Shown: in pieces, positions 38,908-57,061 of the stretch
How positions within the stretch are numbered: the stretch's first letter is position 1
How the letters are laid out: each line of letters opens with the position of its first letter
Source: Arcobacter suis CECT 7833
GTDB taxonomy: Bacteria; Campylobacterota; Campylobacteria; Campylobacterales; Arcobacteraceae
Assembly: GCF_003544815.1 (NCBI RefSeq)
Contig: NZ_CP032100.1
Span: forward strand, 1,054,001 to 1,118,000
Direction: 5' to 3'
DNA length: 64,000 bases
The notes under the pieces: generated by a model
What the model was told of the DNA's origin: nothing
The model's database searches: none
The model's input: the letters and a program-made list of their open reading frames with translations, nothing else
Translations under genes and position numbers: made by a program

Positions 38908-39501
38908 ATTTCTACTACTAAAGAAAATAAAAAAAATAATATTATACAAAATGCTTTAAAACTTTTTTCACAAAAAGGTTTCTATAATACTACAATTCCA
39001 GATATTGCAAAAGCTATGAGTATGAGTGTTGGAAATATGTACAACTATTTCTCTTCAAAAGAAGAACTTGCAAAATTTGCTATAAAATACTCAACAAATA
39101 TTTTAGCTGATGAACTAAAACAGATTAATAACATGGATATAACTTCAAAAGAAAAAATATATTTATTTGTATTAAAATATTTAGAAAATGTTCAAAAATC
39201 ACCAGAAGTTATTGAATATTTTTTAAGAGTTTATTTATCAAATAGAGAGGTTTTCAAACAAGGTTGTGAAGGATTCTTATGTGTGGGAGAGTTTGTAACT
39301 GAAGTTATGATTTTATTAGAAGAAGGTGCTAGTAAAAAAGAGTTTAGAGAACAAGAATTCTTTCCTGCTTTTAGTATGATTATGGGATGTTTAGGTGGTT
39401 TTGCCTTTTTAAGTGGAGAGAATGTCTTAGACAAAGAGTTACTTTCATATTCAGATGCAGTGGCAGAGAATATATATCGTGCTTTGAAGTATGACAACTA
39501 A
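38908..39501 (+). CDS. TetR-family regulator with apparent ATT start
   Basis: A 197-residue TetR-type repressor. The first in-frame ATG (39016) would delete most of the DNA-binding domain. The intact helix-turn-helix (NIIQNALKLFSQKGFYNTTIPDIAKAM, SMSVGNMYNYFSSKEEL) begins only upstream. The nearest in-frame stop is at 38902-38904, leaving ATT at 38908 as the only plausible start, six bases after AAAGGA. ATT starts are rare, known best in infC. Its end overlaps the start of the hydrogenase-type small subunit gene, so it is part of the hydrogenase island. It probably binds the inverted repeats upstream of the hydrogenase operons; this is inferred. Confidence 0.82.
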   Translation: MSTTKENKKNNIIQNALKLFSQKGFYNTTIPDIAKAMSMSVGNMYNYFSSKEELAKFAIKYSTNILADELKQINNMDITSKEKIYLFVLKYLENVQKSPEVIEYFLRVYLSNREVFKQGCEGFLCVGEFVTEVMILLEEGASKKEFREQEFFPAFSMIMGCLGGFAFLSGENVLDKELLSYSDAVAENIYRALKYDN

Positions 39502-40384
39502 AAAAAAACCAACTATTGTCTGGTTTTGCGCAATTACATGTAATGGAAATACCCATTCCTTATTAAGTGCCAACTCAAGTAGATTTGAACTTCTTTTAAA
39601 TAGTTTTGATTTTATATATCATCCAAGTTTGACTATTGATAAATCGCTTGAAGATATATTAAATCAAGAAGAGAAAATAGACTTTTTATTAGTAGAAGGT
39701 TCTATTTCTTCAAATAAAGATTTTTTTACAATTAATGAAGATTCAACTTTTAATCACTTAAATAAATTAGCATCAAAAGCAAATTATATAATTTCTGTTG
39801 GTTCTTGCGCTTCTTTTGGTGGAGTTCATGCTAAATTTATTCAAAATGATGATATTTGTAGTATTAATAAAGCTATCAACAAAGATATTATCAAAAATCT
39901 AAAACACAATATTATAAATCTTACTGGTTGTCCAGTTCATCCAGAATGGATTTTACAAACTTTATTTACATTAAAAACTTATGGAAAAATAGCAATTGAT
40001 GAAATTGGACGACCAAAAGAATTATATGGAACTTTAGCCCATCATGGATGTACAAGAAATGAATATTTTGAATGGAAAGTTGAAGGAAATTTTGGACAAA
40101 AAGAGGGATGTTTATTTTATAGTCAAGGTTGTCGTGGTCCTATGACTCATAGTTCATGTAATAAAATTTTATGGAATGAAGTAAGTTCAAAAACAAGAAT
40201 TGGAATGCCTTGTATTGGATGTACCGAAGCTGATTTCCCAAGAAATGATATGTTAGAAACTAAAAAAAATATAGGAATTCCCCATGAAGTTCCTCTTGGA
40301 ATCTCAAAAAGAGCATATTTAAGTATGAGTGGAGTAGCTAAAACTTTTAAAATAGATAGACTTCATAAAAAATTAATGGAGTAA
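39491..40384 (+). CDS. [NiFe]-hydrogenase small subunit, cytosolic/sensor-like
   Basis: A 297-residue iron-sulfur subunit with no Tat signal and no C-terminal membrane anchor, so it is cytosolic. The N-terminal block WFCAITCNGNTHS has Cys13 and Cys17 but Asn20 where periplasmic enzymes have a second CxxC ligand of the proximal cluster. Later ligand regions are present: VGSCASFGG, NLTGCPVHPEW, the HHGCTRNEYFEWK region, GCLFYSQGCRGP and MPCIGCTEADFP. This fits group 2-type hydrogenases, which include the H2-sensing HupU/HoxB proteins. It overlaps the TetR gene by 11 bases and is followed by its large subunit. Sensor versus energy-conserving enzyme is not decided. Confidence 0.85.
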   Translation: MTTKKKPTIVWFCAITCNGNTHSLLSANSSRFELLLNSFDFIYHPSLTIDKSLEDILNQEEKIDFLLVEGSISSNKDFFTINEDSTFNHLNKLASKANYIISVGSCASFGGVHAKFIQNDDICSINKAINKDIIKNLKHNIINLTGCPVHPEWILQTLFTLKTYGKIAIDEIGRPKELYGTLAHHGCTRNEYFEWKVEGNFGQKEGCLFYSQGCRGPMTHSSCNKILWNEVSSKTRIGMPCIGCTEADFPRNDMLETKKNIGIPHEVPLGISKRAYLSMSGVAKTFKIDRLHKKLME

Positions 40385-40386
40385 TA

Positions 40387-41742
40387 GTGAAAACAATAGA
40401 TTTAGTGGAAAGAATCGAAGGTGAAGCAAAACTTCATTGTACTTGGGTAGATGAAAAAGTAAAAGATGCAAGAATTGATTTTTTAAATTTTAGAGGATTT
40501 GAATATATATTAGAAGGAAAAACACCTTTAGATGCTTTAATTTATACTCCAAGAATCTGTGGAATTTGCGGACAAGCTCACTTAAAAGCAACAGTTGAAG
40601 CTTTAGAAAATGTTTATGAAAATATAAATGAAAAATTACAAATCACACCAAAAGCAAAACTTTTAAGGGAAATAGGATTAAATATCGAGATAATTGATTC
40701 CCATTTAAAATGGTTTTATATGTTCATAATGCCTGATATTATAAAACTAGATACTAATGATTTGGGAATTTATGCACCTTTAAAAGGTTCAAGATGGTTA
40801 GAAGCTCAAAAAAGTGCTAGTGAAACTATAAAAGCTTTAGCCATAATTGGGGGACAATGGCCACATACTTCATATATGCTTCCTGGTGGAGTCATGAGTG
40901 ATCCTACAAAACTTGATTTAGTTATGATGCAAAATTATCTTCAAAATACAATTAGTTTTTTTGAAAAATCTATAAGTGGAACAGCTTTAGAAAATTATTT
41001 AGCCTTTGATGGCATTGATAATTTAGAAAATTTAGGTGCAGATTTAAAATATTTTAAAGATTTATCATTTAAATATTCCCTTGAAAATTATGGAAAATCT
41101 TATAATAGATTTATCACATTAGGAGAATCAAGTTTATTTAAAAGTGGAAAAATAAAACAAAGATTAGTGTATAAATTAGACTTTTCAAAAATAGTTGAAG
41201 ATACTAGTTACTCTTTTTCTATAAACAAAGAAGAAAATAATTCTTTAAAACATACTTGGTCAAAATCAGTAGCTTATGATGAAAACTTTTTTGAAACAGG
41301 TCCTTTATCAAGAGCTATTATTTCAAATAGAAAATTTATAAAAGAGATACACAAAACTTTTGAAGATTCGGTATTTACAAGAGTAATGGCAAGAATGGAC
41401 GAATTAGCATTTTTACTTTTTGAAACTAATAATCTAATTTCACAAGTTGATATTTCACAGCTTTCTTACATAAAACCAAAAATTTCATTAAAAGATATTG
41501 ATGAAGCTAAGGGAATAGCAGTTATTGAAGCTTGTAGAGGCTCATTGTTTCATAATATAAGTATAGAAAAAGGTTTGATTAAATCTTATGATGTAATAAC
41601 TCCTACAGTTTGGAACTTAGGTCCAAAAAGTAAAACTCAAAAAGGAATAGCACAAAAAGCAATTATTGGTTCTCCAAGTATAGAAATTGCAAAAATTGTA
41701 TTAAGAAGTTTTGATGTTTGTTCAGTTTGTACTACCCATTAA
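40387..41742 (+). CDS. [NiFe]-hydrogenase large subunit without C-terminal extension
   Basis: A 451-residue partner of the preceding small subunit, starting with GTG at 40387 (GGAG just upstream). The Ni-Fe ligands are RICGICGQAH (Cys58, Cys61) and the C-terminal DVCSVCTTH (Cys445, Cys448). The protein stops directly at His451, the residue after which maturation proteases normally cut, so it should need no protease. That feature and the short length are typical of sensory HupV/HoxC proteins. Val replaces the usual Pro in DPC. The pair lies between a TetR gene and the first uptake hydrogenase, which would suit an H2 sensor, although no HoxJ-like kinase is nearby. Confidence 0.85.
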   Translation: MKTIDLVERIEGEAKLHCTWVDEKVKDARIDFLNFRGFEYILEGKTPLDALIYTPRICGICGQAHLKATVEALENVYENINEKLQITPKAKLLREIGLNIEIIDSHLKWFYMFIMPDIIKLDTNDLGIYAPLKGSRWLEAQKSASETIKALAIIGGQWPHTSYMLPGGVMSDPTKLDLVMMQNYLQNTISFFEKSISGTALENYLAFDGIDNLENLGADLKYFKDLSFKYSLENYGKSYNRFITLGESSLFKSGKIKQRLVYKLDFSKIVEDTSYSFSINKEENNSLKHTWSKSVAYDENFFETGPLSRAIISNRKFIKEIHKTFEDSVFTRVMARMDELAFLLFETNNLISQVDISQLSYIKPKISLKDIDEAKGIAVIEACRGSLFHNISIEKGLIKSYDVITPTVWNLGPKSKTQKGIAQKAIIGSPSIEIAKIVLRSFDVCSVCTTH

Positions 41743-41991
41743 TTTATAAAAAAAGTGTATATTTGTAACAATATAAAAAAATATTTAACTTCTTCTATTC
41801 TTATGTACTTTTAGAACTAAAATTATAATAAACACCATAAAATCAAACAATAACTCATCCTATTTAATACAAATAGTTATAAAGCTATATTAATGCTATT
41901 CTTTAGAATATTTAGTTAAGAAAAGAATAAGTTTTATGCAGATATTTTACAATTAAGTAAATGAATGTTCATTTTAATAAGGGAGTAATGT
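41743..41991 (+). promoter_or_regulatory. 249-bp control region of the first uptake hydrogenase operon
   Basis: No gene is seen. It is AT-rich with several TATAAT-like boxes, and near its right end it carries the inverted repeat at 41959-41974 and a GGGAG ribosome site. Ni-, Fe- or H2-dependent regulation is plausible but no other named site was recognised. Confidence 0.6.
41959..41974. promoter_or_regulatory. TetR-type operator candidate 1
   Basis: AAATGAA-TG-TTCATTT is a perfect inverted repeat 17 bases before the hydA ATG. Its arms equal those of the site at 48939-48958 before the second hydrogenase operon, but the gap is two bases instead of six. Location and shared arms make it a candidate target of the TetR regulator at 38908. 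Confidence 0.55.
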
Positions 41992-43227
41992 ATGATTGAT
42001 TCGCAAGATATGGTAAAAAAAGTTTTTACCCAAAAATCAGGAAGAGTTGAAACAAATAAGGGTGAAGAATATTATAACTCTTTATTTGAAAAGGTTAAAA
42101 ATCGTTTATCAGTATTAAAAGCGCAACCTGCACTTAAAGATATTGATATGATGGATGTAATAGAAAGTGAAGGTGTAAATAGAAGAGATTTCATGAAGTG
42201 GGTTAGTGCTACAACTGCAACACTTATGTTACCTCCTATGTTTGCACCACTTGTTGCAGAAGCTACTGAACTTATGAATAGAGTTCCTGTTATTTGGATT
42301 GAATTACAAGACTGTGCTGGAAATTCAGAAGCGCTTTTAAGAAGTTCAGCTCCAACTGTTGATGATTTGTTATTTGATGTTTTAAGTTTAGAATATCATG
42401 AAACACTTCAAGCATGTGCTGGACATGATGCTGATAAACAACTTGAAGAAGCTGTTGAGCATTTCAAAGGTAAATATTTACTTTTTGTTGAAGGTGCAAT
42501 TCCAATGGCTATGAATGGTCAATATGGAACTGTTGGTGCAAGTGGAGAGACTTTCCATGATCATCTTGTAAGAATGGCAAAAGATTCAGCAGCAGTTGTA
42601 GCTGTGGGAACTTGTGCAACATTCGGAGGAATTCCTGCTGCTGCTCCAAATCCAACAGGTGCTGTTGGAGTTATGGATATAGTAAAAGGTAAACCAATTA
42701 TCAATATTCCAGCATGTCCTGCAAATCCTGCAAATATGGTTGGTGTTGTATTACATTATGTTTTAACTGGGCAAGTTCCTGAACTTGATTCTTTATTAAG
42801 ACCAAAATTCGCATTTGGATATAGAATTCACGATAACTGTGAAAGAAGAGCTCACTTTGATGCTGGTGAATTTGTAGAAGAGTGGGGAGATGAAGGTGCT
42901 AAAAATAACTTCTGTTTATATAAAGTTGGATGTAAAGGTCCAATGACTTTTAATAACTGTTCAATAATTAGATATAACGAAGGTACAAACTGGCCTATTG
43001 GTGTTGGTCGAGGATGTATTGGATGTTCTGAGCCAGATTTCTGGGATAAATATGCTTATGAAAGACCAATGGCAGATGCAAAAATCAAAGCACCAACTGG
43101 TGGAGTTGAAAAAACTGTTGATGAGTTTGGTTTAGGATTATTAACAGCGACAGCTATTGGTATTGGAGTTCATGCAGTTGCAAGTGTAGTTGCTGGTAAA
43201 AAATCAAATGAAGGGGAAGAAAAATAA
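41992..43227 (+). CDS. hydA: Uptake [NiFe]-hydrogenase small subunit
   Basis: A 411-residue subunit of a periplasm-facing H2-oxidising enzyme. A long (about 60-residue) leader precedes the Tat motif NRRDFMKW (Arg64, Arg65), then a hydrophobic stretch. The iron-sulfur part follows; the C-terminal helix TATAIGIGVHAVASVVAG anchors it near cytochrome b. Ligand segments GTCATFGG, IPACPANPAN, HDNCERRAHFDAGEF, CLYKVGCKGPMTFNNC and GCIGCSEPDFW are present. One oddity is CAGN (Cys108 to Asn111) in place of the usual CTGC for the proximal cluster; its paralog at 49040 retains CTGC. The stop overlaps the ATG of hydB. Confidence 0.93.
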   Translation: MIDSQDMVKKVFTQKSGRVETNKGEEYYNSLFEKVKNRLSVLKAQPALKDIDMMDVIESEGVNRRDFMKWVSATTATLMLPPMFAPLVAEATELMNRVPVIWIELQDCAGNSEALLRSSAPTVDDLLFDVLSLEYHETLQACAGHDADKQLEEAVEHFKGKYLLFVEGAIPMAMNGQYGTVGASGETFHDHLVRMAKDSAAVVAVGTCATFGGIPAAAPNPTGAVGVMDIVKGKPIINIPACPANPANMVGVVLHYVLTGQVPELDSLLRPKFAFGYRIHDNCERRAHFDAGEFVEEWGDEGAKNNFCLYKVGCKGPMTFNNCSIIRYNEGTNWPIGVGRGCIGCSEPDFWDKYAYERPMADAKIKAPTGGVEKTVDEFGLGLLTATAIGIGVHAVASVVAGKKSNEGEEK

Positions 43228-44969
43228 TGGCAAAAAAACATTTAGTAATAGATCCAATTACAAGAATAGAAGGACATCTTAGAATTGAAGCAATTATAGA
43301 TGAAAATAATGTTGTAGTAGACGCATACTCTTCTTCAACAATGTTCAGAGGAATTGAAGAAATTTTAAAAGGAAGAGACCCAAGAGATTGTGGTTTATTA
43401 GCAATGAGAATTTGTGGAGTTTGTACAGGAACTCATTACCAAAGAAGTATTGAAGCGGTTGAGCATGCATTTAAAATTACAATTCCAAAAAATGCAAGAT
43501 TAGTAAGAAACCTAATTCAAGGTGCATTATATTTACATGATCATATTGTGCATTTTTATCATTTACATGCGCTTGACTGGGTTGATATTACAGAAGCTTT
43601 AAAAGCTGACCCTAAAAAAACAGTAGCTGAGGCTCAAAAATGGGCAAAAGTTTCAGGTCAAAGACCATGGAATGCTAGCGAAGATGTATATTCAGCTGTT
43701 CAAGAAAGAGTTACAAGATATGTAAAACAAGGAAGACTTGGAATCTTTGGAAACGCATATTGGGGTTCAAAAGGATTTAAACTAACTCCTGAGCAAAACT
43801 TAATCGGACTTTCTCATTATTTAGATGCTTTAGAATTACAAAGAGATTTAGCAAAAATGATGGCTATTTTTGGTGGTAAAAATCCACATCCACAATCTTT
43901 TGTTGTAGGTGGAGTAACTTGTGTTCAAGATATTAAGAACCCAGCAAGAATCGCAGAATTTAAACAAATTCTAAAAAGAGGTCAAAAGTTTACTAAAGAA
44001 GCATATTTACCAGATGTTTATATGGCAGGAACTATGTATGCTGGAGAAGCTTTAGAAGGAATTGGTGGTGGTTTAGGAAACTATATGTGTTATGGAGACT
44101 TTAGACTTGATGATACACCATTCTATGAAGCAGCAAAACTATTCCCATCAGGAATTGTAAAAAATAAAGATTTAACAAAAGTTTTTGAAATAGACCAAAC
44201 AAAAATTACAGAAGATGTAACTCATGCTTGGTATGAAGGAACTACAAATCTTCATCCATTTGAAGGTGTTACAAAACCAAACTATACAGGATTTGGTAAA
44301 AAAGAAGATAATATCGCTTATCTTGACACAACTAAAAAATACTCTTGGATTAAATCTCCATTATACGATGATGAAAGAATGGAAGTTGGACCACTTGCAA
44401 GGATGATTATAGGTGTTGCTAAAGGTGATGCTAGAATTACAAAATATGTAACAACATTCTTAAAAAATGGAAATTTACCAACAACTGTATTATTTTCAAC
44501 AGTTGGTAGAACTGCAGCTCGTGCAATTGAGACTGAACTTATGGCTGATGTTATGTTAGAATGGGTTGATGAATTAGCTTTAAATGTAGCTCATGGAGAT
44601 TTATCAACATGGACTGAATTTAACTTTGATAATGTTTCAAAAGATGCTCAAGGTTATGGAATGGCTGAAGCTCCAAGAGGTGGTTTAGGTCATTGGATTA
44701 AAATCAAAGATGGAAAAGTTGCAAACTATCAAGCGGTAGTTCCATCAACTTGGAATGCAGCTCCAAGAGATTACAAAGGAAGAATGGGTGCTTATGAATC
44801 AGCATTAATTGGTACAAAAGTAGCAAATGTAGATCAACCACTAGAGATTTTAAGAACAATTCATAGTTTTGACCCTTGTATTGCTTGTGCTGTACATATT
44901 GTTGATACAAAAGGAAAAGAATTAGGTGTTTATAAAGTAGATCCAATTGGAGGAACAAGCCGTGCCTAA
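43227..44969 (+). CDS. hydB: Uptake [NiFe]-hydrogenase large subunit
   Basis: The 580-residue catalytic subunit. The Ni-Fe centre is held by RICGVCTGTH (Cys63, Cys66) and DPCIACAVH (Cys551, Cys554). After His557 there is a 23-residue extension that the specific protease removes during maturation, consistent with the hydD gene downstream. Other typical segments are DPITRIEGHLRI at the start and VPSTWNAAPRD. With hydA it forms the membrane-bound H2-oxidising heterodimer, exported through the Tat route as a complex. The start is coupled to the hydA stop. Confidence 0.95.
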   Translation: MAKKHLVIDPITRIEGHLRIEAIIDENNVVVDAYSSSTMFRGIEEILKGRDPRDCGLLAMRICGVCTGTHYQRSIEAVEHAFKITIPKNARLVRNLIQGALYLHDHIVHFYHLHALDWVDITEALKADPKKTVAEAQKWAKVSGQRPWNASEDVYSAVQERVTRYVKQGRLGIFGNAYWGSKGFKLTPEQNLIGLSHYLDALELQRDLAKMMAIFGGKNPHPQSFVVGGVTCVQDIKNPARIAEFKQILKRGQKFTKEAYLPDVYMAGTMYAGEALEGIGGGLGNYMCYGDFRLDDTPFYEAAKLFPSGIVKNKDLTKVFEIDQTKITEDVTHAWYEGTTNLHPFEGVTKPNYTGFGKKEDNIAYLDTTKKYSWIKSPLYDDERMEVGPLARMIIGVAKGDARITKYVTTFLKNGNLPTTVLFSTVGRTAARAIETELMADVMLEWVDELALNVAHGDLSTWTEFNFDNVSKDAQGYGMAEAPRGGLGHWIKIKDGKVANYQAVVPSTWNAAPRDYKGRMGAYESALIGTKVANVDQPLEILRTIHSFDPCIACAVHIVDTKGKELGVYKVDPIGGTSRA

Positions 44970-45663
44970 CATTAAAGAGGTTAAAAGAATGACTGGAACT
45001 ATGCGAATCATTCACTGGTTGAATGCAATTTGCATGGTGGTAGCAGTTATAACCGGTTTATATATAGGTCACCCTTATTATCAATCATTTATTGCAGATC
45101 CAGCAGTGGATAAGTATGTAATGGCTTGGAATAGATGGGGGCATTTTATTGTTGCAATTATCTTTGATGTAACTGCTGTATTAATAGGTTATTTATATTT
45201 CTTTTCAAGATTTGAAAAACCTTATAAAAAACTAATACCAACTGTAAAAAATATAGTTGAATTTTGTGAAGTATTTTTAAATCTAATTACTTTTAATAGA
45301 AGAAAGAAATTTGATTCATCACATAGTGATAGTTATAATATTGTATTTTTTACAATTTTTCATATACTATTAGTATTTATGTTATTTAGCGGACTTCAAC
45401 TTTATGTTCATGGATTAGCATCAGGTGAGAGTTCAATTGGAGCTTGGTGGCCTTGGATGCTTCACTTTACAACTGATTGGACTTTAAGTGTATTTGGTGG
45501 AAATATGGGAGTTAGAATTGCTCATCATACATCAATGTATTTAATTTTAGTTTGGGTAATGTGTCATATTTATTACCAAATCTGGAGAACAATATTCTGG
45601 AAAGAGGGTGACATTGCAATTGTCATTGGCGGAAGTAAATTTGTAAGAGAAGAAGAAAAATAG
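44962..45663 (+). CDS. hydC: Ni,Fe-hydrogenase b-type cytochrome subunit
   Basis: A membrane di-haem cytochrome b that takes electrons from hydA and gives them to menaquinone. GTG at 44962 is chosen: GGAGGA lies seven bases upstream inside the end of hydB, which it overlaps by eight bases. The protein is then 233 residues. Four membrane helices carry His residues expected as haem ligands: MRIIHWLNAI in helix 1, RWGHFIVAI in helix 2, FTIFHILLVF in helix 3, and RIAHHTSMYLIL with VMCHIYYQIW in helix 4. It is followed by a GC-rich hairpin and then the protease gene. Confidence 0.92.
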   Translation: MPNIKEVKRMTGTMRIIHWLNAICMVVAVITGLYIGHPYYQSFIADPAVDKYVMAWNRWGHFIVAIIFDVTAVLIGYLYFFSRFEKPYKKLIPTVKNIVEFCEVFLNLITFNRRKKFDSSHSDSYNIVFFTIFHILLVFMLFSGLQLYVHGLASGESSIGAWWPWMLHFTTDWTLSVFGGNMGVRIAHHTSMYLILVWVMCHIYYQIWRTIFWKEGDIAIVIGGSKFVREEEK

Positions 45664-45672
45664 GTAAAAGAA

Positions 45673-45686
45673 GGGGCGAAAGCCCC
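45673..45686 (+). terminator. GNRA-loop hairpin within the hyd operon
   Basis: GGGGC-GAAA-GCCCC lies nine bases after the hydC stop and is followed by GTTTTAATTT. GC content is high for this genome. It could partly terminate transcription, or stabilise the upstream message, so that structural subunits are made in excess over HydD and HydE. Confidence 0.65.
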
Positions 45687-45708
45687 GTTTTAATTTAAGG
45701 GTGTAATT

Positions 45709-46302
45709 ATGAAAAAGAAAAATATTGTAATTGGTGTTGGAAATATGCTTTTTAAGGATGAAGGTATTGGTATTTATGCTTCTGAGTATATTAAACAAAA
45801 TTATGAATTTGATGATAAAGAGTTAGAAATTATTGATGGTGGGACATTAGGATTTAAACTAATGGCATATTTTCAAGAGTATGACAATGTTATTATTTTA
45901 GATACTGTGTCTATAGAAGATATAGTTGGAGGAATTTATAGACTTCCATCTGATGTTCTTTTGGGACTGGGAACATATAGAAAAACAGCACATGAGGTTG
46001 AAATTGTAGAGATGCTAGAAATAGTTTCAGTTTTAGATTCTCACGCAAATGTTACAATTATTGGAATAATTCCAAAAGATATTGAAAGTGTTCAAATTGG
46101 ACTTACAATTGAGATGGAAGATAAATTTGAAGAGTTTATTTTAAATGGAATTAAAGAGATAGAAAGCCTTGGAATAAAAGCTACAAAAGTAAATGATGTA
46201 AAAGTAAGTGATGTTGTAAAAAGTATGATAGGAAGTTACAACGGCGAACATTTAACAAGAATTCCAAATGAAGAAGATTTTACACATGCAATTAATCTAT
46301 AA
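45709..46302 (+). CDS. hydD: Hydrogenase maturation protease
   Basis: A 197-residue endopeptidase that removes the C-terminal extension from HydB once Ni is inserted. The family motifs are GVGNMLFKDEGIGIYA (metal-binding Glu), IIDGGTLGFKL, VIILDTV (Asp ligand) and KTAHEVEIVEML (His ligand). The last ~40 residues, beyond the core, are charged and have no obvious match. The end overlaps hydE. The second operon has its own copy at 52612, which suggests that each protease serves its own large subunit. Confidence 0.92.
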   Translation: MKKKNIVIGVGNMLFKDEGIGIYASEYIKQNYEFDDKELEIIDGGTLGFKLMAYFQEYDNVIILDTVSIEDIVGGIYRLPSDVLLGLGTYRKTAHEVEIVEMLEIVSVLDSHANVTIIGIIPKDIESVQIGLTIEMEDKFEEFILNGIKEIESLGIKATKVNDVKVSDVVKSMIGSYNGEHLTRIPNEEDFTHAINL

Positions 46303-47818
46303 AATAGAATTTAATACAACAAATTTATATTTCAAACATATAATAGAAAATTTAATACAAGAAGCTAAAATAAATGGTATTTGTAAACAATATAATGGTT
46401 TTATACTTATTCTTTTAGAAGCAAAAGGAAATGAAATTGAAGATTTTTTTGCTTTATTAGAAAAGAAATTACCACTTAGTATATTTATAGGAAAATCATA
46501 TGTTGTCGAAACTTATGATGAAACTTTAAAAGAAATAGAAGATTTTGATATAAAACAAAATTTAACACTTCTTACAAATGATGCAATAAAAAAAATAATT
46601 GAAGAAAATAATATAGACTTTTTAAACGATATTGTAAAAATTACAAAAGGTGGAATTTCAAGATTTGAAACACACAATGGATTAAAAGACTATTTTTTAC
46701 CAAATAAAAGAATTAGAGAAGATTTCGAAAACAAAGGTTTCGAAGTTAAACTTTTGATTACTGATATTACAAAAGTAGAGGATATTTTTGATATAAATAT
46801 GAAAGATTATCAACTTTTATGTTCAATTGAAAGACCATTAGTAAAACTAAAATTTAAAATATTAAAAAATGCAAATAAAGAGTTTTCTTCTTCAAACTTT
46901 ATATATGCAAAAATTCCCGATGATAAAGAAGTGATTTTATTTGCAAAAGCTTTAAAAGAAAATGGAATAAATCATGTTTTATATGTAAATGATGAAGTTT
47001 ATCAAGATGGATTAAAAATCACATATTTTAAAGAACAAAGCCTAATTATTCATGGAGATAAAGGTCTTTTTCCAAAGTATGATTTTACTGCAAATAAAAA
47101 ATTTAACTCTTCAAAAGATTATTTTGATGAAAATGGTGGAGTTTATAAAGCAATTCTTGCTCAAAATGCAAAAAGATTGGTACCAAGTATTGGAGTATAT
47201 TTTTCTCAAAATAGTCACAAAAGCTCAATTTCAGTAAATGTTCCAACAAAAGGAATAAAAGATATTATATTTATTCCAAATATTCATAATAGTATAAAAA
47301 ACTGTTTTGAAGAAATTTCAGATATTGATGAACATTGTGCAAGACTTATTATTAATTATTCAAAAAAATTTCCAAATGTTTTAGAGGGTGAAGTTCCATT
47401 AAATACAAATGGTTTTGAATCAATTATAAATATGTGTGCAAAAGTTTTAGGAATAAATAGTGCTAAAGATTTTGAAGATATAGCTTTAAACACAAATTTA
47501 TCAAGTGGAATTCAAATAGATATGAAACTTGTAAGTTTAGATGGAATAAATTATTTAGACTATAGAAGAACAGTTCAATCAATTATGGCTTATAAAATGG
47601 CTGACGTTGATAATATTACTCTGATTTATTCTTTTTATGAGAGTTTAAGTGAATTTATCTGTAATTATGTAAATGAAATTGCAAAAGATGTAGAAACAAA
47701 AGATGTAGTTTTATGTGGAAATATGTTTTCAAACTCAATACTTCTTTCAAAAACAAATAAAACTCTTAGTAAAAGTTATAATATTATCTTGCCAAAAGAG
47801 TATCCACTAGATTATTAA
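46286..47818 (+). CDS. hydE: HydE-like hydrogenase accessory protein (HypF-like C-terminal part)
   Basis: A 510-residue protein like H. pylori HydE, encoded at the end of a hydABCD operon and needed for hydrogenase activity. ATG 46286 is preferred to 46268 as its first residues (MQLIYKIEF) align with the start of the paralog at 53159. The C-terminal ~150 residues (YLDYRRTVQSIMAYKMA, ESLSEFICNYV, VVLCGNMFSNSIL) resemble the end of HypF/Kae1-type domains, but the zinc fingers and acylphosphatase are absent. The gene overlaps hydD by 17 bases. The mechanism is unknown; a Kae1-like fold suggests handling of a nucleotide or carbamoyl intermediate. Confidence 0.8.
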   Translation: MQLIYKIEFNTTNLYFKHIIENLIQEAKINGICKQYNGFILILLEAKGNEIEDFFALLEKKLPLSIFIGKSYVVETYDETLKEIEDFDIKQNLTLLTNDAIKKIIEENNIDFLNDIVKITKGGISRFETHNGLKDYFLPNKRIREDFENKGFEVKLLITDITKVEDIFDINMKDYQLLCSIERPLVKLKFKILKNANKEFSSSNFIYAKIPDDKEVILFAKALKENGINHVLYVNDEVYQDGLKITYFKEQSLIIHGDKGLFPKYDFTANKKFNSSKDYFDENGGVYKAILAQNAKRLVPSIGVYFSQNSHKSSISVNVPTKGIKDIIFIPNIHNSIKNCFEEISDIDEHCARLIINYSKKFPNVLEGEVPLNTNGFESIINMCAKVLGINSAKDFEDIALNTNLSSGIQIDMKLVSLDGINYLDYRRTVQSIMAYKMADVDNITLIYSFYESLSEFICNYVNEIAKDVETKDVVLCGNMFSNSILLSKTNKTLSKSYNIILPKEYPLDY

Positions 47819-47823
47819 ATTTT

Positions 47824-47850
47824 ATTCCCTAATAAATTTTATTAGGGAAT
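47824..47850. terminator. Perfect 27-bp palindromic terminator after hydE
   Basis: ATTCCCTAATAAA and TTTATTAGGGAAT surround one T, six bases after the hydE stop. The trailing tract is T-rich. It ends the first hydrogenase operon. Confidence 0.75.
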
Positions 47851-47917
47851 TATTCTATTTTCAAACTATTTGTAGTAATATCTATCATAAGGTCAAATTA
47901 TACAAAAGGAAACTCTT

Positions 47918-48799
47918 ATGAATACTCCATTCGATAAAGAAAATCTAAAAAAAGCTTTAAAACAACAACAAAATGAGATAAATGACTATACGATTTACAA
48001 AGCTTTATCACTTTCTCAAACTGATGAAAATAACAAAAAAATCTTTGAAAAAATCTCAAAAGAAGAAAAATACCATTATGATTTTTGGGTAAAAATAACA
48101 AATACACAAATAGAACCACAAAAGTTGGTAGTTTGGTGGTTTGTTCTTCTTGTAAAAATTTTTGGAACTTCTTTTGCTTTAAAATCTTTAGAAAAAAGAG
48201 AAGCAGGAGCAGAAGAGTTTTATAAAGAACTTTTTGAAATATATCCAGAATCAAAAAAGATTTATGAACAAGAAACACAACATGAATTAGAACTTATTGA
48301 TATGTTAAATGATAAAAAACTTTTATATGCAGGTGCAATTGTACTTGGTATGAATGATGCTTTAGTTGAATTAACAGGAACTTTAAGTGGTTTGGCTTTT
48401 GCCTTTGATAAGAGTTTGACAGTTGGTTTAACTGGTCTTATTATGGGAATAGCTGCTTCCTTATCAATGGCTGGTTCTGCATATTTTGAAGCAAAAGAAA
48501 ATCCGAGTGAAGAGATAAATCCTTTGGTATATTCTTTATATACAGGAGTTTCATATATTTTAACAACTGCAATTTTAGTTGTTCCATTTTTTATATTTGA
48601 TTTGATTATTGAATCATTAATTATGATGTTTATCTGTGCCTTTTTAGCCATCATCTCATATAACTTTTATATAAGTGTTGCAAAAGATTTGAGTTTCTCA
48701 AAAAGAGTTATTCAAATGTCTGCAATTACTTTTGGAGTTGCTCTTATTTCTTTTGCAATTGGTTATGTTGTGAAGTTTTATTTTGGAATAGAAATTTAA
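47918..48799 (+). CDS. MbfA-like iron exporter (ferritin-like plus VIT1)
   Basis: A 293-residue membrane protein. Residues 1-130 are a rubrerythrin/ferritin-like helical domain with the metal-binding Glu/His pairs EKISKEEKYHYDF and EQETQHELELI. Residues about 140-293 are the VIT1/CCC1 membrane domain with AIVLGMNDALVELTGTLSGLAFAF and MGIAASLSMAGSAYFEAKE. Bacterial MbfA proteins of this plan export Fe2+ (or Mn2+) and protect from peroxide. The gene sits between two hydrogenase operons with its own promoter gap and terminator, so it is not obviously part of either. A link to iron demand or metal stress in hydrogenase assembly is possible. Confidence 0.88.
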   Translation: MNTPFDKENLKKALKQQQNEINDYTIYKALSLSQTDENNKKIFEKISKEEKYHYDFWVKITNTQIEPQKLVVWWFVLLVKIFGTSFALKSLEKREAGAEEFYKELFEIYPESKKIYEQETQHELELIDMLNDKKLLYAGAIVLGMNDALVELTGTLSGLAFAFDKSLTVGLTGLIMGIAASLSMAGSAYFEAKENPSEEINPLVYSLYTGVSYILTTAILVVPFFIFDLIIESLIMMFICAFLAIISYNFYISVAKDLSFSKRVIQMSAITFGVALISFAIGYVVKFYFGIEI

Positions 48800-48822
48800 A
48801 ATACAATTTTAATTCTTTTAAA

Positions 48823-48858
48823 TCAAAAGATATGTAAAGTTTGTTACATATCTTTTGA
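48823..48858. terminator. Hairpin with 15-bp stem after the MbfA-like gene
   Basis: TCAAAAGATATGTAA pairs perfectly with its complement around AGTTTG. T/A-rich flanks on both sides make it a plausible terminator 23 bases after the stop. Confidence 0.75.
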
Positions 48859-48938
48859 AATATTTATTTAAATTATTTTTCTAACTTTATCTTAGTTTTT
48901 AAGCCTATAAAATTATTACTTTCATTATTTATAATAAA

Positions 48939-48958
48939 AAATGAATAATCATTCATTT
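48939..48958. promoter_or_regulatory. TetR-type operator candidate 2
   Basis: AAATGAAT-AATC-ATTCATTT is a perfect inverted repeat about 80 bases upstream of the second hydrogenase operon. Its core AATGAATAATCATTCATT resembles operators of TetR-family repressors such as the TGAATGA..TCATTCA site of Bacillus FadR. Confidence 0.65.
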
Positions 48959-49007
48959 AATCAAGAAATATTAACCTTAAAAACTATAGAATGGCACGAA
49001 ATAAAAA

Positions 49008-49025
49008 TATGAATAATCATTCATA
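49008..49025. promoter_or_regulatory. TetR-type operator candidate 3
   Basis: TATGAAT-AATC-ATTCATA repeats the core of the site at 48939-48958, including the AATC centre, 69 bases downstream. It lies directly before the AAAAAAGGA ribosome site of the next gene, so bound protein would block elongation or initiation. Two copies with an identical centre favour real regulator binding. Confidence 0.65.
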
Positions 49026-49039
49026 AAAAAGGATAAATT

Positions 49040-50200
49040 TTGCAAAGCCAAAAACTCTATGAAAAGTTATCTAATAGATTAATAGATTTAGAAAAATTAC
49101 CAAAATTAAAACAAAATAAATCAATCTCATCTCATTTAGAAGAAAAAGGTATTTCAAGAAGAGATTTTATGAAATGGGCAGGAACAATAACAGCAATGTT
49201 AGCATTACCTGCATCTTTTACTCCATTAGTTGCAAAAGCTGCAAAATTATCGGATAGATTACCAATTATCTGGCTTCATATGGCTGAATGTACAGGTTGT
49301 AGTGAAGCATTATTAAGAACAGATTCTCCAACTATTGATTCTTTGATTTTTGATTATATTTCACTTGAATACCATGAAACTTTAATGGCAGCTGCTGGTT
49401 GGCAAGCTGAACATAATCTGGAACATGCAATTCAAACTTACAAAGGTCAATATATTTTGATGGTTGAAGGTGGAATTCCAAAAGGTGAAAATGCTTCTTA
49501 TTTAACTGTTGGTGGTCATGGAAAAACAGGTGAACAAATTGCCCTTGAAGCTTCAAATAATGCAATGGCAATTTTTGCTATTGGAACTTGTTCTTCTTAT
49601 GGTGGAGTTCAAGCAGCAATTCCAAATCCAACAGGAGCAGTTGCTTTATCAAAAATCACAGATAAACCAGTTATTAATGTTCCTGGTTGTCCTCCAAGTG
49701 AAAAAAATATTGTTGGAACTTTACTTCATTATATTCTTTATGGAACATTGCCAGCACTTGATGCTTATAATAGACCAAAATGGGCTTATGGACAAAGAAT
49801 TCATGATTTATGTGAAAGAAGAGGTCATTTTGATGCTGGCGAATTTGTAGAAGAATTCGGAGATGAAGGAGCTAAAAAAGGATATTGTTTATATAAAGTA
49901 GGGTGTAAAGGTCCATATACTTTTAATAACTGTTCTAAAAATAAATTTAATTCTCATACTTCATGGCCTATTCAAGCTGGGCATGGTTGTATTGGATGTA
50001 GTGAACCTGATTTTTGGGATACGATGGGACCATTTGAAGAACCAGTTGCCAATAGATTATATAACACTGTTTTTAAAGGTTTAGGTGCTGATGCAACAGC
50101 TGATAAAATAGGTGTTGGATTATTAACAGTAACAGGTATTGGGATTGCAGTTCATGCAGCTATTTCAAAATTCAAAAACCCAAAAGATACGCAGGAGTAG
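49040..50200 (+). CDS. hyaA: Second uptake [NiFe]-hydrogenase small subunit
   Basis: A 386-residue paralog of the subunit at 41992. It starts with TTG at 49040 (GGA six bases upstream); no in-frame ATG occurs before the Tat motif. The Tat signal is SRRDFMKW (Arg40, Arg41) after a leader about 24 residues shorter than in the first copy. The proximal-cluster motif is the normal CTGC (Cys84, Cys87 in MAECTGCSEA). Others are GTCSSYGG, VPGCPPSEKN, HDLCERRGHFDAGEF, KVGCKGPYTFNNC and GCIGCSEPDFW. A C-terminal anchor helix (LTVTGIGIAVHAAI) is present. Regulation probably acts through the two inverted repeats immediately upstream. Confidence 0.93.
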   Translation: MQSQKLYEKLSNRLIDLEKLPKLKQNKSISSHLEEKGISRRDFMKWAGTITAMLALPASFTPLVAKAAKLSDRLPIIWLHMAECTGCSEALLRTDSPTIDSLIFDYISLEYHETLMAAAGWQAEHNLEHAIQTYKGQYILMVEGGIPKGENASYLTVGGHGKTGEQIALEASNNAMAIFAIGTCSSYGGVQAAIPNPTGAVALSKITDKPVINVPGCPPSEKNIVGTLLHYILYGTLPALDAYNRPKWAYGQRIHDLCERRGHFDAGEFVEEFGDEGAKKGYCLYKVGCKGPYTFNNCSKNKFNSHTSWPIQAGHGCIGCSEPDFWDTMGPFEEPVANRLYNTVFKGLGADATADKIGVGLLTVTGIGIAVHAAISKFKNPKDTQE

Positions 50201-50202
50201 AA

Positions 50203-51936
50203 ATGTCAAATCAAAGAGTAATAGTAGATCCAATAACAAGAATTGAAGGACATTTAAGAATTGAAGTTGAAATTGATGAAAATAATGTAATTCAAAAAGC
50301 ATATTCAAGTTCAACTTTATGGAGAGGTTTAGAAACAATAGTAAAAAATAGAGACCCAAGAGATGCTGGTTTTTTAATGCAAAGAATTTGTGGAGTTTGT
50401 ACTTTTTCACATTATAGAGCTGGAATTGAAGCGGTGGAAAATGCTTTGGGAATAGTTCCACCTTTAAATGCAAAATTAACAAGAAGTTTAATGAATATTT
50501 CTTTATTTATGCATGACCATGTTGTTCATTTTTATCATTTACATGGATTAGATTGGGTTGATGTAGTTTCTGCTTTAGATGCAGATGAAGCAAAAGCTTC
50601 AAAAGAAGCATTTAAATACTCAGAATTTCCAATAGCAACGGGAGAAAATGATTTAAAAAAAGTAAAAACAAGAGTTAAAGAGTTTGTTGATAGGGGACAA
50701 CTTGGACCCTTTGCAAATGCTTATTGGGGACATAAAACATATAGATTAAGTCCTGAACAAAATTTGATACTTTTAAGTCATTATTTAAAAGCTTTAGAAG
50801 TTCAAAGGGATTTAGCAAAACTTATGGCTATGTTTGGTGGAAAACAGCCTCATCCTCAAAGTCTTACTGTTGGTGGAGTTACTTGTGTTATGGATTTAAT
50901 GGATCCTTCAAGAATGGGAGAATATTTAACTTTATTTGAAAAAGGTGCAGAATTTATAGAACAAGCTTACCAAGCTGATGTTATTATGGTTGCAGCTACT
51001 TATAAAGATGAACCTTCTGTAATGGCACCAGCTGGAGTTATGAATTTTATGGCTCATCAAGAAATGCAATTAAATAGAAGTGAATTTTTATTTGATACAG
51101 GAATCATTATGAATCAAGATTTATCAAAAGTTTATGAGATAAATGAAGATTTAATAACAGAAGAAGCAACACACTCTTGGTATGAAAATAATGAACCTTT
51201 ACATCCATACGAAGGAAAAACAAATCCTAAATATACAGGATTTAAAGATATGGAAACAATAGGTGCTAATAAAGAAAAAGTTCATTCAAAAGTAATAGAT
51301 GAAAAAGGAAAATATTCTTGGATTAAATCTCCAAGATATGACGGTAAAGCTATGGAAGTTGGACCATTAGCTTGTATTTTAATCTCTTATGCAAAAGGAA
51401 ATAAAAAAATAGTTCCTTTAGTAGATGATTTCTTAACAAAAACAAAATTAGACAAATCAGCTTTATTTACAACACTTGGAAGAACAGCTGCTAGAATGAT
51501 TCAAGCAAGAGCAATTGCAAAACATGGATTAGAAGCTTTTTATGCGTTAATAGAGAATCTAAAAGTAGATCAAGATACTTATACTTCTTATAAAATTGAT
51601 AAAAACAAAGAGTATAAAGGAAGATTCATAGGTGATGTTCCAAGGGGAATGTTATCTCATTGGATTAGAATTAAAAATGGAGTAGTTGAAAATTATCAAG
51701 CTGTTGTTCCATCAACTTGGAATGCAGGACCAATTGATGCAAAAGGTCAAGTTGGACCTTATGAAGCAAGTTTGATTGGTTTAAAAGTAGCAGATATTTC
51801 TCAACCTTTGGAAATTATTAGAGTAATTCACAGTTTTGATCCTTGTATTGCTTGTGCTGTACATGTTATGGATAAAAAAGGTAATGATTTAGGAACATAC
51901 AAAGTTGATCCTATATATGGTTTATCTTGTCGTTAA
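50203..51936 (+). CDS. hyaB: Second uptake [NiFe]-hydrogenase large subunit
   Basis: A 577-residue catalytic subunit closely parallel to HydB. Ni-Fe ligands lie in RICGVCTFSH (Cys63, Cys66) and DPCIACAVH (ending at His554), followed by a 23-residue C-terminal extension for proteolytic maturation. It lies two bases after the small subunit stop, with AGGAG at the junction. Differences from HydB concentrate in the middle (residues about 95-160 and 265-300). This indicates an older duplication or separate acquisition rather than a very recent copy. Confidence 0.95.
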   Translation: MSNQRVIVDPITRIEGHLRIEVEIDENNVIQKAYSSSTLWRGLETIVKNRDPRDAGFLMQRICGVCTFSHYRAGIEAVENALGIVPPLNAKLTRSLMNISLFMHDHVVHFYHLHGLDWVDVVSALDADEAKASKEAFKYSEFPIATGENDLKKVKTRVKEFVDRGQLGPFANAYWGHKTYRLSPEQNLILLSHYLKALEVQRDLAKLMAMFGGKQPHPQSLTVGGVTCVMDLMDPSRMGEYLTLFEKGAEFIEQAYQADVIMVAATYKDEPSVMAPAGVMNFMAHQEMQLNRSEFLFDTGIIMNQDLSKVYEINEDLITEEATHSWYENNEPLHPYEGKTNPKYTGFKDMETIGANKEKVHSKVIDEKGKYSWIKSPRYDGKAMEVGPLACILISYAKGNKKIVPLVDDFLTKTKLDKSALFTTLGRTAARMIQARAIAKHGLEAFYALIENLKVDQDTYTSYKIDKNKEYKGRFIGDVPRGMLSHWIRIKNGVVENYQAVVPSTWNAGPIDAKGQVGPYEASLIGLKVADISQPLEIIRVIHSFDPCIACAVHVMDKKGNDLGTYKVDPIYGLSCR

Positions 51937-54817: not shown

Positions 54818-57061
54818 ATGATAAACAAAAAGATTAAAATTACAGGTATTGTTCAAGGGGTTGGATTTCGTCCTTTTGTTTATAATTTAGCTTTAAAATA
54901 TGATATAAAAGGTTGGGTTAACAACGATGAAAAAGGAGTAAATATTCTTCTTTCTTCAAGTGAAGAAAATATCCAAAATTTTATAAATGAACTAAAATCA
55001 AATCCTCCAATCTTAGCAAGAATTGATTCTATAAATATAGAAGAAATAACTGAAATAAAAGAGTATAAAACCTTTGAAATAATACAAAGTGAAAGCTCAA
55101 AAAACAAATCTACTATTATCTCTCCTGATATTGCTATTTGTGATGATTGTATTGAAGATATAAATGATATGTCTAACTTTAGATACAATTATAGTTTAAC
55201 AAATTGTACAAATTGTGGTCCAAGATATTCAATAATCAAAACAGTTCCTTATGATAGAATAAATACTTCAATGTTTTCTTTTGAATTATGTGAAAAATGC
55301 AAAAATGAATATGAAAATCCAATAAACAGAAGATACCATGCTCAACCAATTGCTTGTGAAAACTGTGGTCCAAATGTAGTTTTGTATAATAATAAAAATG
55401 AAGTTTTATCTTCAGACATTAATGCTATAAAAGAAATAGCTCAAAAGATTAATAAAGGTAGTATTGTAGCTATTAAAGGAATGGGAGGTTTTCATCTAAT
55501 TTGTGATGCAAACAATGATAAAGTTGTGGAAAAATTAAGAATAAGAAAAAGCCGATTAAATAAACCTTTTGCTATAATGTTTAAAGATATAAATAGTATT
55601 AAAAATTATACAGATTTAACACAAAAAGAAGAAGAACTTTTAAACTCAAAAGAAAAACCAATAGTTCTAGTAAAAAAGAAAAAAAAGTTTAATTTATCAC
55701 AACTATTAGCTCCAAATATTAATCATCTGGGATGCTTTATAGCTTATACAGCTTTGCATCATTTACTTTTTAGATATTTAGATAATCCAATTGTTGCTAC
55801 AAGTGCAAATTTAAAAGGTGAACCAATTATCACTTCAAAAGATGAAATTATAGAAAAATTATCAAATGTGGTAGATTTTGTCCTTGATTTTAATAGGGAT
55901 ATTTTAAATGCAAGTGATGATTCAGTTATACAAATTGTAGATAATAATATAACAAAAATTAGAAATGCTAGAGGTTATGCTCCAACAGCATTTAGTTTTG
56001 AAAATAAAAGCAAAAAGAAAATACTTTCACTTGGGGCAAATCAAAAATCAACAATTAGTCTATATTTTGAAAATAACTTAATTTTATCACCATATATTGG
56101 TGATTTAAACTCTTTAAAATCAATGGAATATTTTGAAAGAACAATAAAGACTTTTAAAAGATTTTATGACTTTGAACCAGAAGTTATAGTTTGCGATAAA
56201 CATCCAAATTATGAGTCTACAAAATTTGCTTTAAAACTAAAACAAACCAATCCAAATTTAGAGTTGGTTCAAATCCAACATCACTATGCTCACGTATTAT
56301 CTGTGATGGCTGAATATAAATTAAATAAAGATGTATTAGCATTTATTTTTGATGGAACTGGATATGGTGATGATGGAAATATTTGGGGTGGAGAAGTTTT
56401 CGTGGCTTCAAAAACTGAATATAAAAGGGTGAATCATTTTAAATATTTTAAACTTTTAGGTGGTGAAAAAGCTGTTCTTGAGCCCAAAAGACTGGCTCTA
56501 AGTCTACTTTTTGATAGTTTTTCTTTGGAAGAAGTGTTAAATCTTGAAATACCATGTGTAAAAGTCTTTAAAGAATCAGAAATAAAAATGTTTCATACAA
56601 TGTGGCAAAAAGGTTTAAATTCACCGCTTACAAGCTCTGTAGGGCGTTTATTTGATGCTGTTGCATCATTTGCCAATATTCTTCATATTCAAAGCTATGA
56701 GGGAGAAACGGGCTTGCAAATAGAACAATATTACGACAAAACAATCACACAAAGTTATGCTTACGAAATAATTGAAGATAAAATTGAACTATCTTTTATG
56801 ATTAAACAAATGATTTTAGAAAAAGATAAAAAACAAATTTGCTCAAAATTTATAAATACAATAGGGCAGATTATCCTAGATATTTCAAATCTTCATAAAG
56901 ATTTACCAATAGTTTTAGGTGGAGGAGTTTTTCAAAATAGAACGCTTTTAGAACTTTTGATAAATATGTTTAAAGATCAAAATAGAGAGTTTTATTACAA
57001 TAAAAATATTCCATTAAATGATGGTGGAATAAGCGTAGGGCAAATTTACCATATAATCTAA
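54818..57061 (+). CDS. hypF: HypF carbamoyltransferase
   Basis: A 747-residue enzyme that makes the cyanide ligand precursor of the Ni-Fe centre from carbamoyl phosphate and ATP, passing the carbamoyl group to HypE. Domains in order: acylphosphatase (about 1-90, GIVQGVGFRPFVYN), two zinc fingers (Cys108/Cys111, Cys130/Cys133, Cys158/Cys161, Cys180/Cys183), a YrdC-like domain (about 200-380, KGMGGFHLICDA) and a Kae1-like domain (about 395-747, HHYAHVLSVMAEY, DGTGYGDDGNIWGGE, LGGGVFQN). All parts are intact. HypA-E are not in this window, so hypF is set apart from them and would serve all hydrogenases in the island. Confidence 0.95.
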   Translation: MINKKIKITGIVQGVGFRPFVYNLALKYDIKGWVNNDEKGVNILLSSSEENIQNFINELKSNPPILARIDSINIEEITEIKEYKTFEIIQSESSKNKSTIISPDIAICDDCIEDINDMSNFRYNYSLTNCTNCGPRYSIIKTVPYDRINTSMFSFELCEKCKNEYENPINRRYHAQPIACENCGPNVVLYNNKNEVLSSDINAIKEIAQKINKGSIVAIKGMGGFHLICDANNDKVVEKLRIRKSRLNKPFAIMFKDINSIKNYTDLTQKEEELLNSKEKPIVLVKKKKKFNLSQLLAPNINHLGCFIAYTALHHLLFRYLDNPIVATSANLKGEPIITSKDEIIEKLSNVVDFVLDFNRDILNASDDSVIQIVDNNITKIRNARGYAPTAFSFENKSKKKILSLGANQKSTISLYFENNLILSPYIGDLNSLKSMEYFERTIKTFKRFYDFEPEVIVCDKHPNYESTKFALKLKQTNPNLELVQIQHHYAHVLSVMAEYKLNKDVLAFIFDGTGYGDDGNIWGGEVFVASKTEYKRVNHFKYFKLLGGEKAVLEPKRLALSLLFDSFSLEEVLNLEIPCVKVFKESEIKMFHTMWQKGLNSPLTSSVGRLFDAVASFANILHIQSYEGETGLQIEQYYDKTITQSYAYEIIEDKIELSFMIKQMILEKDKKQICSKFINTIGQIILDISNLHKDLPIVLGGGVFQNRTLLELLINMFKDQNREFYYNKNIPLNDGGISVGQIYHII

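Follow-up and report, generated by a model that had tools for sequence, protein, structure and literature searches.

The regulatory hydrogenase HupUV/HoxBC works together with a kinase, HupT/HoxJ, and a regulator, HupR/HoxA. Here we describe a locus of Arcobacter suis CECT 7833, within a 64,000-nucleotide stretch of contig NZ_CP032100.1 (positions 1,054,001 to 1,118,000; the window), in which a gene for a TetR-family regulator is followed by genes for a HupUV-like hydrogenase and by two hydrogenase operons preceded by inverted repeats. As in HupUV/HoxBC systems, the HupUV-like enzyme is a cytosolic group-2 hydrogenase without a C-terminal extension, encoded beside hydrogenases that it may control; unlike there, its partner is a one-component TetR protein encoded by an overlapping gene. 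Comparison of promoter sequences across related genomes makes it very probable that TetR, hydA1, hydA2, the hyp genes, and nrfHA are linked in a single regulon.

In Sulfurospirillum multivorans, a TetR-like repressor gene lies directly upstream of hupSL and was supposed to repress hupSL, according to a passage in Kruse et al. (PMC5357620). The operators predicted here, in contrast, lie at hydAB, hyp, and nrfHA, with no exact one before tetR-hupUV in the genus of the window. The label group 2d is taken from work on huaSL of A. butzleri (PMC12286921); HuaSL, HupSL, and Aquifex hydrogenase III, all group 2d, equal the HupUV-like enzyme in lineage and position, as far as the literature describes them. 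A passage in the Nautilia genome paper names its group 2 enzyme as H2-sensing (PMC2628731). Helicobacter hydABC is likewise a controlled hydrogenase operon of the Campylobacterota, but its regulation by Fur and NikRS, as outlined in a section of a review (PMC6682613), is metal dependent and not of the TetR type. No report of TetR operators or a TetR regulon at hydrogenase genes was found in a literature search covering titles and the openings of abstracts, with subscription journals mostly outside its reach.

Sites before the hydrogenase genes

In the window, tetR is followed by the hupU-like and hupV-like genes. After one site come hydA1B1 with additional genes and then a VIT1/rubrerythrin-like gene; two more sites are followed by hydA2B2, again with additional genes, and by a hypF-like gene. 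The central features are:

38908..39501, plus strand: tetR, TetR-family regulator, 197 aa (PF00440, 1.1e-14); probable ATT start at 38908 after AAGGA
39491..40384, plus strand: hupU-like small subunit of a cytosolic group-2 [NiFe] hydrogenase; its start overlaps the tetR end by 11 nt
40387..41742, plus strand: hupV-like large subunit, terminating exactly at the CxxCxxH histidine, C-terminal extension absent
41959..41974, no strand: putative short operator AAATGAATGTTCATTT before hydA1, conserved in relatives
41992..43227, plus strand: hydA1, hydrogenase small subunit
43227..44969, plus strand: hydB1, large subunit
48939..48958, no strand: putative distal long operator before hydA2, core ATGAATAATCATTCAT at 48941-48956
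49009..49024, no strand: putative proximal long operator ATGAATAATCATTCAT before hydA2
49040..50200, plus strand: hydA2, small subunit, TTG start, Tat signal
50203..51936, plus strand: hydB2, large subunit

An earlier note on this DNA had read the repeats as marks of one TetR regulon over both hydrogenase operons. The repeats at 41959-41974 (AAATGAATGTTCATTT) and 48939-48958 (AAATGAATAATCATTCATTT) are as it described them, including the AATC centres and the gaps of 2 versus 6 bases. The third copy lies where it was placed, but has the arms TATGAAT/ATTCATA instead of AAATGAA, so that the long sites have in common the 16-mer ATGAATAATCATTCAT. Its claim that copies in the window occur only at the hydrogenase operons holds for AAATGAA/TTCATTT arms, but not for the bare core TGAATATTCA, which is also found at 27527, within a coding open reading frame (ORF).

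We distinguish a short form of the site, TGAAYRTTCA (as at hydA1), from a long form, TGAAYN4RTTCA (as at hydA2). Across the host genome (2.64 Mb, single contig), motif counts gave a mixed result. Strict patterns were no more frequent than their reversed controls (TGAAYN4RTTCA, 14 versus 16; ATGAAYRTTCAT, 2 versus 4), whereas two looser patterns were: ATGAATN4ATTCAT with at most 1 mismatch (40 versus 12, the majority scattered) and AAATGAAN{0,10}TTCATTT (12 versus 3, with 10 of the 12 outside the window). The case must therefore rest on position and conservation.

For conservation, 104 genomes of the family were surveyed, with a TetR threshold of E <= 1e-15. TetR was found in 67 genomes, in a single copy each, a HupV-like subunit in 65, and some HydA in 84. 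By hand comparison, 64 genomes had both TetR and HupV, three had TetR alone (G048, G073, and G103), and one had HupV alone (G095); the contigs of G048 and G103 stop within hupU, while that of G095 begins there, explaining why no TetR was found in it. In G077, a stop interrupts the tetR frame. The loci compared comprised 66 other TetR loci, 18 loci with HydA from genomes without TetR, and nine extra pieces of TetR genomes or G095; G095 and the other-contig pieces of G048, G052, G060, G065, and G077 were counted as TetR-positive. No hydA start was obtained for L114, which was excluded from all promoter counts, and for L108, with two hydA copies, the second was counted, the first likewise having no exact site.

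An exact site within 150 bp before hydA1 was present in 57 of 61 TetR-positive promoters versus none of 11 TetR-negative ones, and before hydA2 in 31 of 32 versus none of 7. Each of the five TetR-positive hydA promoters without an exact site was one mismatch away from it, a distance reached by one of the TetR-negative promoters (11 hydA1 and 7 hydA2). Among shuffled 150-bp promoters, 0.2% had an exact site and 7.8% a site with at most 1 mismatch. The three exact sites in TetR-negative loci (L106, L107, and L109) are all distant from hydA. With the window left aside, TetR-positive loci of the family carried 125 sites in 18,200 bp before hydA and 36 in 965,437 bp elsewhere (6.87 versus 0.037 per kb). 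On the HydA1 tree, the TetR state changed at least 4 times, and in independent pairs, the site tracked TetR in an average of 3.7 of 4, the reverse direction never occurring. The proposal of one TetR regulon over both operons thus gains strong comparative support, as sites are present with TetR and lost without it.

Other elements of the window accompany these sites:

41884..41898, plus strand: GCTA-N7-GCTA direct repeat with a period of 11 bp; may be an activator site
41917..41931, plus strand: TAAG-N7-TAAG direct repeat, 11-bp period
41948..41953, plus strand: -10-like TACAAT, inferred from sequence
44947..45663, plus strand: hydC1-like cytochrome b subunit; name based on sequence and position only
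45709..46302, plus strand: hydD1-like maturation protease, named likewise
47918-48799: rubrerythrin/VIT1-like gene between both hydrogenase operons
48987..48992, plus strand: inferred -10-like TAGAAT between the two hydA2 operators
54818..57061, plus strand: hypF-like maturation gene after the second operon, named from sequence only

Both direct repeats, with their 11-bp period, lie upstream of the hydA1 promoter and resemble the sites recognized by OmpR/PhoB regulators. Of the hydA1 promoters, 38 of 61 TetR-positive and none of 11 TetR-negative ones contained the GCTA pair, and 47 of 61 and 4 of 11 the TAAG pair. The rubrerythrin/VIT1-like gene is present in only part of the fetched relatives.

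Further predicted targets and spread of the locus

TGAAYN4RTTCA occurs 14 times in the genome: twice before hydA2, once before hypB-hypC-hypD (1146564), and once before nrfHA (435261), the hyp and nrf genes having been named from their sequences. Another of the 14 is the exact ATGAATN4ATTCAT match at 1134525 described below, five are located within ORFs, and the last four are intergenic or at the end of a gene, one of these four standing before the chemoreceptor-like ORF rejected below. For hypB, we chose 30 genomes, 18 with and 12 without TetR; an exact site within 160 bp before the gene was present in 15 of the 18 (14 long, 1 short) and in none of the 12. The sites are missing in the TetR-positive genomes G003, G013, and G033, of which G003 and G013 adjoin the TetR-negative clade on the HydA1 tree. 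nrfH was present in 10 of the 30 genomes, with a site in 7 of 8 TetR-positive and neither of 2 TetR-negative ones. Before nrfH, 7 of the 10 genomes (L161-L170) carry an FNR-like TTGA-N6-TCAA palindrome, and in six of these seven it stands between the exact TetR-type site and the gene. At 20 of 65 loci, tetR has a site in its own promoter, usually near -65.

Sites inside ORFs were taken as chance occurrences (27527 in the window, the five among the 14, and 2142949). A chemoreceptor-like ORF was rejected as a regulon member, as its site (G000 1895712) is missing around the five best homologs (L294-L298). At 1134525 (L124 2026), an exact ATGAATN4ATTCAT precedes a 612-aa ORF; the ORF on its other side resembles an FAD-dependent oxidoreductase. 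In G029 (L115), the second hydrogenase operon lies approximately 1.6 Mb from tetR and retains a hybrid site, TGAATGAACATTCA, which suggests control at a distance.

Among 397 Campylobacterota genomes, searched for TetR with profile A1 and compared as lists by hand, TetR was found in 115 and HupV in 109: both in 108, TetR only in 7, and HupV only in 1. Wider relatives were taken from 80 kept of 355 found. Of the named members of the genome collection, Aliarcobacter metagenome-assembled genomes (MAGs) and Arcobacter caeni are nearest to the genome of the window; the 80 include records named Persephonella, Hydrogenothermus, and other Aquificota, and as many are MAGs and were sorted by title, single placements are fallible. 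In this set (L233-L292), hupU began within 120 nt of the end of tetR in 49 of 60 cases and hypF in 3; in 8, no such gene was found. TetR relatives directly before hypF rather than hupU were seen in L096, L254, L257, and L260. An exact site occurred within 200 bp before hydA in 31 of 36 promoters, or in 29 of 34 (6 of 8 in Aquificota) after removal of L285 and L288, duplicates of family genomes. Outside the family, site density was 5.16 per kb before hydA versus 0.024 elsewhere. The order tetR-hupUV-site-hydAB was found again in Aquificota, and in Persephonella records, as in several Campylobacterota, hydA is preceded at approximately 30 bp by TGAATGATTATTCA.

The TetR protein and its HupUV-like partner

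The regulator belongs to the TetR family by its N-terminal helix-turn-helix domain, TetR_N (PF00440, 54.4 bits versus a cut-off of 24). Its AlphaFold2 (AF2) model, with a predicted local distance difference test (pLDDT) score of 89, has an all-helical C-terminal domain, with FadR and RutR as the nearest folds. The closest solved fold is Bacillus subtilis FadR (3whb, 20% identity), but the score for the NCBIfam FadR equivalog fell below its cut-off (42.8 bits versus a curated 200), and the targets here are hydrogenase genes. The FadR operator is presumably similar to these sites, although a literature check on this turned up nothing. A CX4C pair (C120 and C125) was present in 124 of 125 TetR sequences, four of which are duplicates; the exception, L096, has hypF adjacent and no hupUV on its short contig. 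The pair falls in the least confident region of the AF2 model and is a tentative candidate for a redox switch.

In 25 of the 67 family tetR loci, including the window, no ATG, GTG, or TTG occurs before codon 37. The codon following AAGGA in these is ATT in 18, ATA in 6, and GTT followed by ATT in 1. Differences in codons 4-36 are mostly in third positions, as in the remainder of the gene, and this coding-type constraint makes it most likely that translation starts upstream of codon 37, where a usual start is lacking. In the window, the apparent start codon of tetR is AUU. infC is a precedent for a start codon that limits the supply of its product, and by analogy, the unusual start of tetR would keep the regulator scarce. 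Automatic annotation may truncate tetR at codon 37, with loss of part of the DNA-binding helices.

Absence of a C-terminal extension on the large subunit is a hallmark of sensory hydrogenases. Among 102 HupV matches, 88 end at CTTH and 11 at CTTQ, all tailless, and the remaining 3 are broken or masked; HydB carries a C-terminal tail of 15-23 aa in 123 of 124 cases. HupV therefore lacks the extension, as expected of a regulatory hydrogenase. In the eleven HupV with CSVCTTQ for CSVCTTH (L073, L263, L265, L268, L274, L275, L278-L280, L284, and L289), glutamine replaces the final histidine of CxxCxxH. HupU is a small subunit without a Tat signal: its residue 2 corresponds to position 46 in the HydA model, and the signal region is thus missing. 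The Pfam Tat model matched HydA2 only; as it missed HydA1 too, its lack of a match on HupU carries little weight. The nearest solved relative of the HupUV-like enzyme is 7utd/7uus, listed as Hydrogenase-2, which we take to be Huc of Mycobacterium smegmatis. By eye, no linked histidine kinase or NtrC-type response regulator was found among the ORFs between 30000 and 64000, the rest of the genome not having been searched.

A proposed hydrogen-responsive regulon and its alternatives

We propose that TetR (38908) would bind TGAAYRTTCA and TGAAYN4RTTCA at or near the hydA1, hydA2, hypB, and nrfHA promoters. In the absence of H2, it would repress the hydrogenase operons, and a repressor is indeed what we consider it likely to be. 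The co-encoded HupUV-like cytosolic hydrogenase would detect H2 and lift this repression, a sensor role towards which we lean. The H2-oxidizing enzymes, the maturation factors, and the electron-consuming nitrite reductase would then rise together. Taken as a whole, an H2-relieved TetR repressor with a HupUV-like sensor over hydA1, hydA2, hypB, and nrfHA is a reasonably probable model. In A. butzleri hDNRA1 grown with H2 versus acetate, the hynAB sets were up 3.7/2.3- and 6.2/4.2-fold and nrfA 4.0-fold, as given in the main text of PMC12286921, in which the word TetR does not occur. These genes are predicted targets, and their response to H2 would be in line with the regulon. A more extended scheme is rather doubtful: group 2d enzymes of Campylobacterota and Aquificota would act as H2 sensors of a one-component circuit, with the redox state of HupUV passed to the CX4C pair of TetR, release of the operators, and consequent H2 oxidation, maturation, and nitrite ammonification, while the AUU/AUA start would limit TetR in Aliarcobacter and near relatives.

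Chance AT-rich palindromes could be invoked from the strict genome-wide counts, which do not exceed the reversed control, but this explanation is refuted by the enrichment in promoters, with conservation also against it, and is exceedingly improbable. The earlier note had further suggested that the differing gap might give different affinities or mean different regulators; in the latter case, TetR would take one spacing and another protein the other. The difference of 4 bp is real and widespread: within 200 bp, and with TetR-negative loci included, 72 hydA1 promoters comprise 45 with purely short sites, 20 with purely long, and 2 with hybrid ones, while the 39 hydA2 promoters comprise 2, 26, and 9, respectively, the close genera having mostly the short form at hydA1 and mostly the long at hydA2. 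At least 2 long sites, spaced 68-85 bp, occur in 14 of the 39, and in the window, the two long sites flank the -10-like box. A second regulator is not required, however, and is very unlikely. Neither exact form is found before hydA in TetR-negative genomes, tetR promoters of other genera contain both, and distant TetR genera have the long form at hydA1. Hybrid sites that combine both spacings in one sequence (e.g., TGAATGAATATTCA and TGAATATTCATTCA) weaken the two-regulator idea further. The joint absence of both forms where TetR is absent, together with the long hydA1 form in distant genera, favors one protein that tolerates both spacings, either as a dimer of flexible reach or as two overlapping dimers.

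That TetR acts as an activator is improbable. The nrfH site lies upstream of the FNR-like palindrome, and the GCTA and TAAG repeats point to a complex promoter under activation; yet the hydA1 and proximal hydA2 sites of the window lie downstream of the inferred -10-like boxes, and in relatives, most proximal sites precede the hydA or hypB start by 25-50 bp, the position of a repressor. A weightier, though still less than even, possibility is that the TetR regulon is real but responds to a small metabolite, redox state, or nickel, the HupUV-like enzyme being a co-regulated catalytic, ferredoxin-reducing hydrogenase. It fits the TetR fold, closest to a FadR solved with stearoyl-CoA, and the sites in 20 of 65 tetR promoters, which suggest autoregulation of the cluster there. 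It fits less well with the missing C-terminal extension of HupV, and TetR without HupUV is rare (7 of 115 genomes) even though TetR would control hydAB. In its favor, the group 2d enzyme has been hypothesized to supply the reductive tricarboxylic acid (rTCA) cycle with reducing power (PMC5401914); against it, an Aquifex paper calls the function of this enzyme unresolved and possibly regulatory, and the enzyme hard to detect (PMC10052474).

The proposed rTCA role also counts against the H2-relieved repressor with a HupUV-like sensor, as do several other observations. TetR and HupUV go missing together, so that absence cannot tell their roles apart. The independent pairs number only four (sign test p 0.125), and significance is therefore unattainable from these alone. 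At nrfH, the distance from site to start is 73-101 bp, and most of the sites are directly upstream of the FNR-like palindrome, making the sign of control there ambiguous. A passage in the S. multivorans paper reports hydB transcription in nearly all tested conditions (PMC5357620). In A. butzleri, huaSL (group 2d) falls with H2, as described in the main text of PMC12286921; with no exact site before tetR in the genus of the window, the model neither predicts nor explains this fall.

The regulation of respiratory enzymes in Campylobacterota has been described as poorly understood in a section of a review (PMC6682613), and the role of group 2d as unresolved in a passage of the Aquifex paper (PMC10052474). 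A set of regulator, operators, and targets conserved in two phyla allows a direct test of both questions. The predicted regulon could also explain why, as published, hydrogenase and nrfA transcripts increase together with H2, and thus how H2 oxidation is tied to nitrate ammonification.

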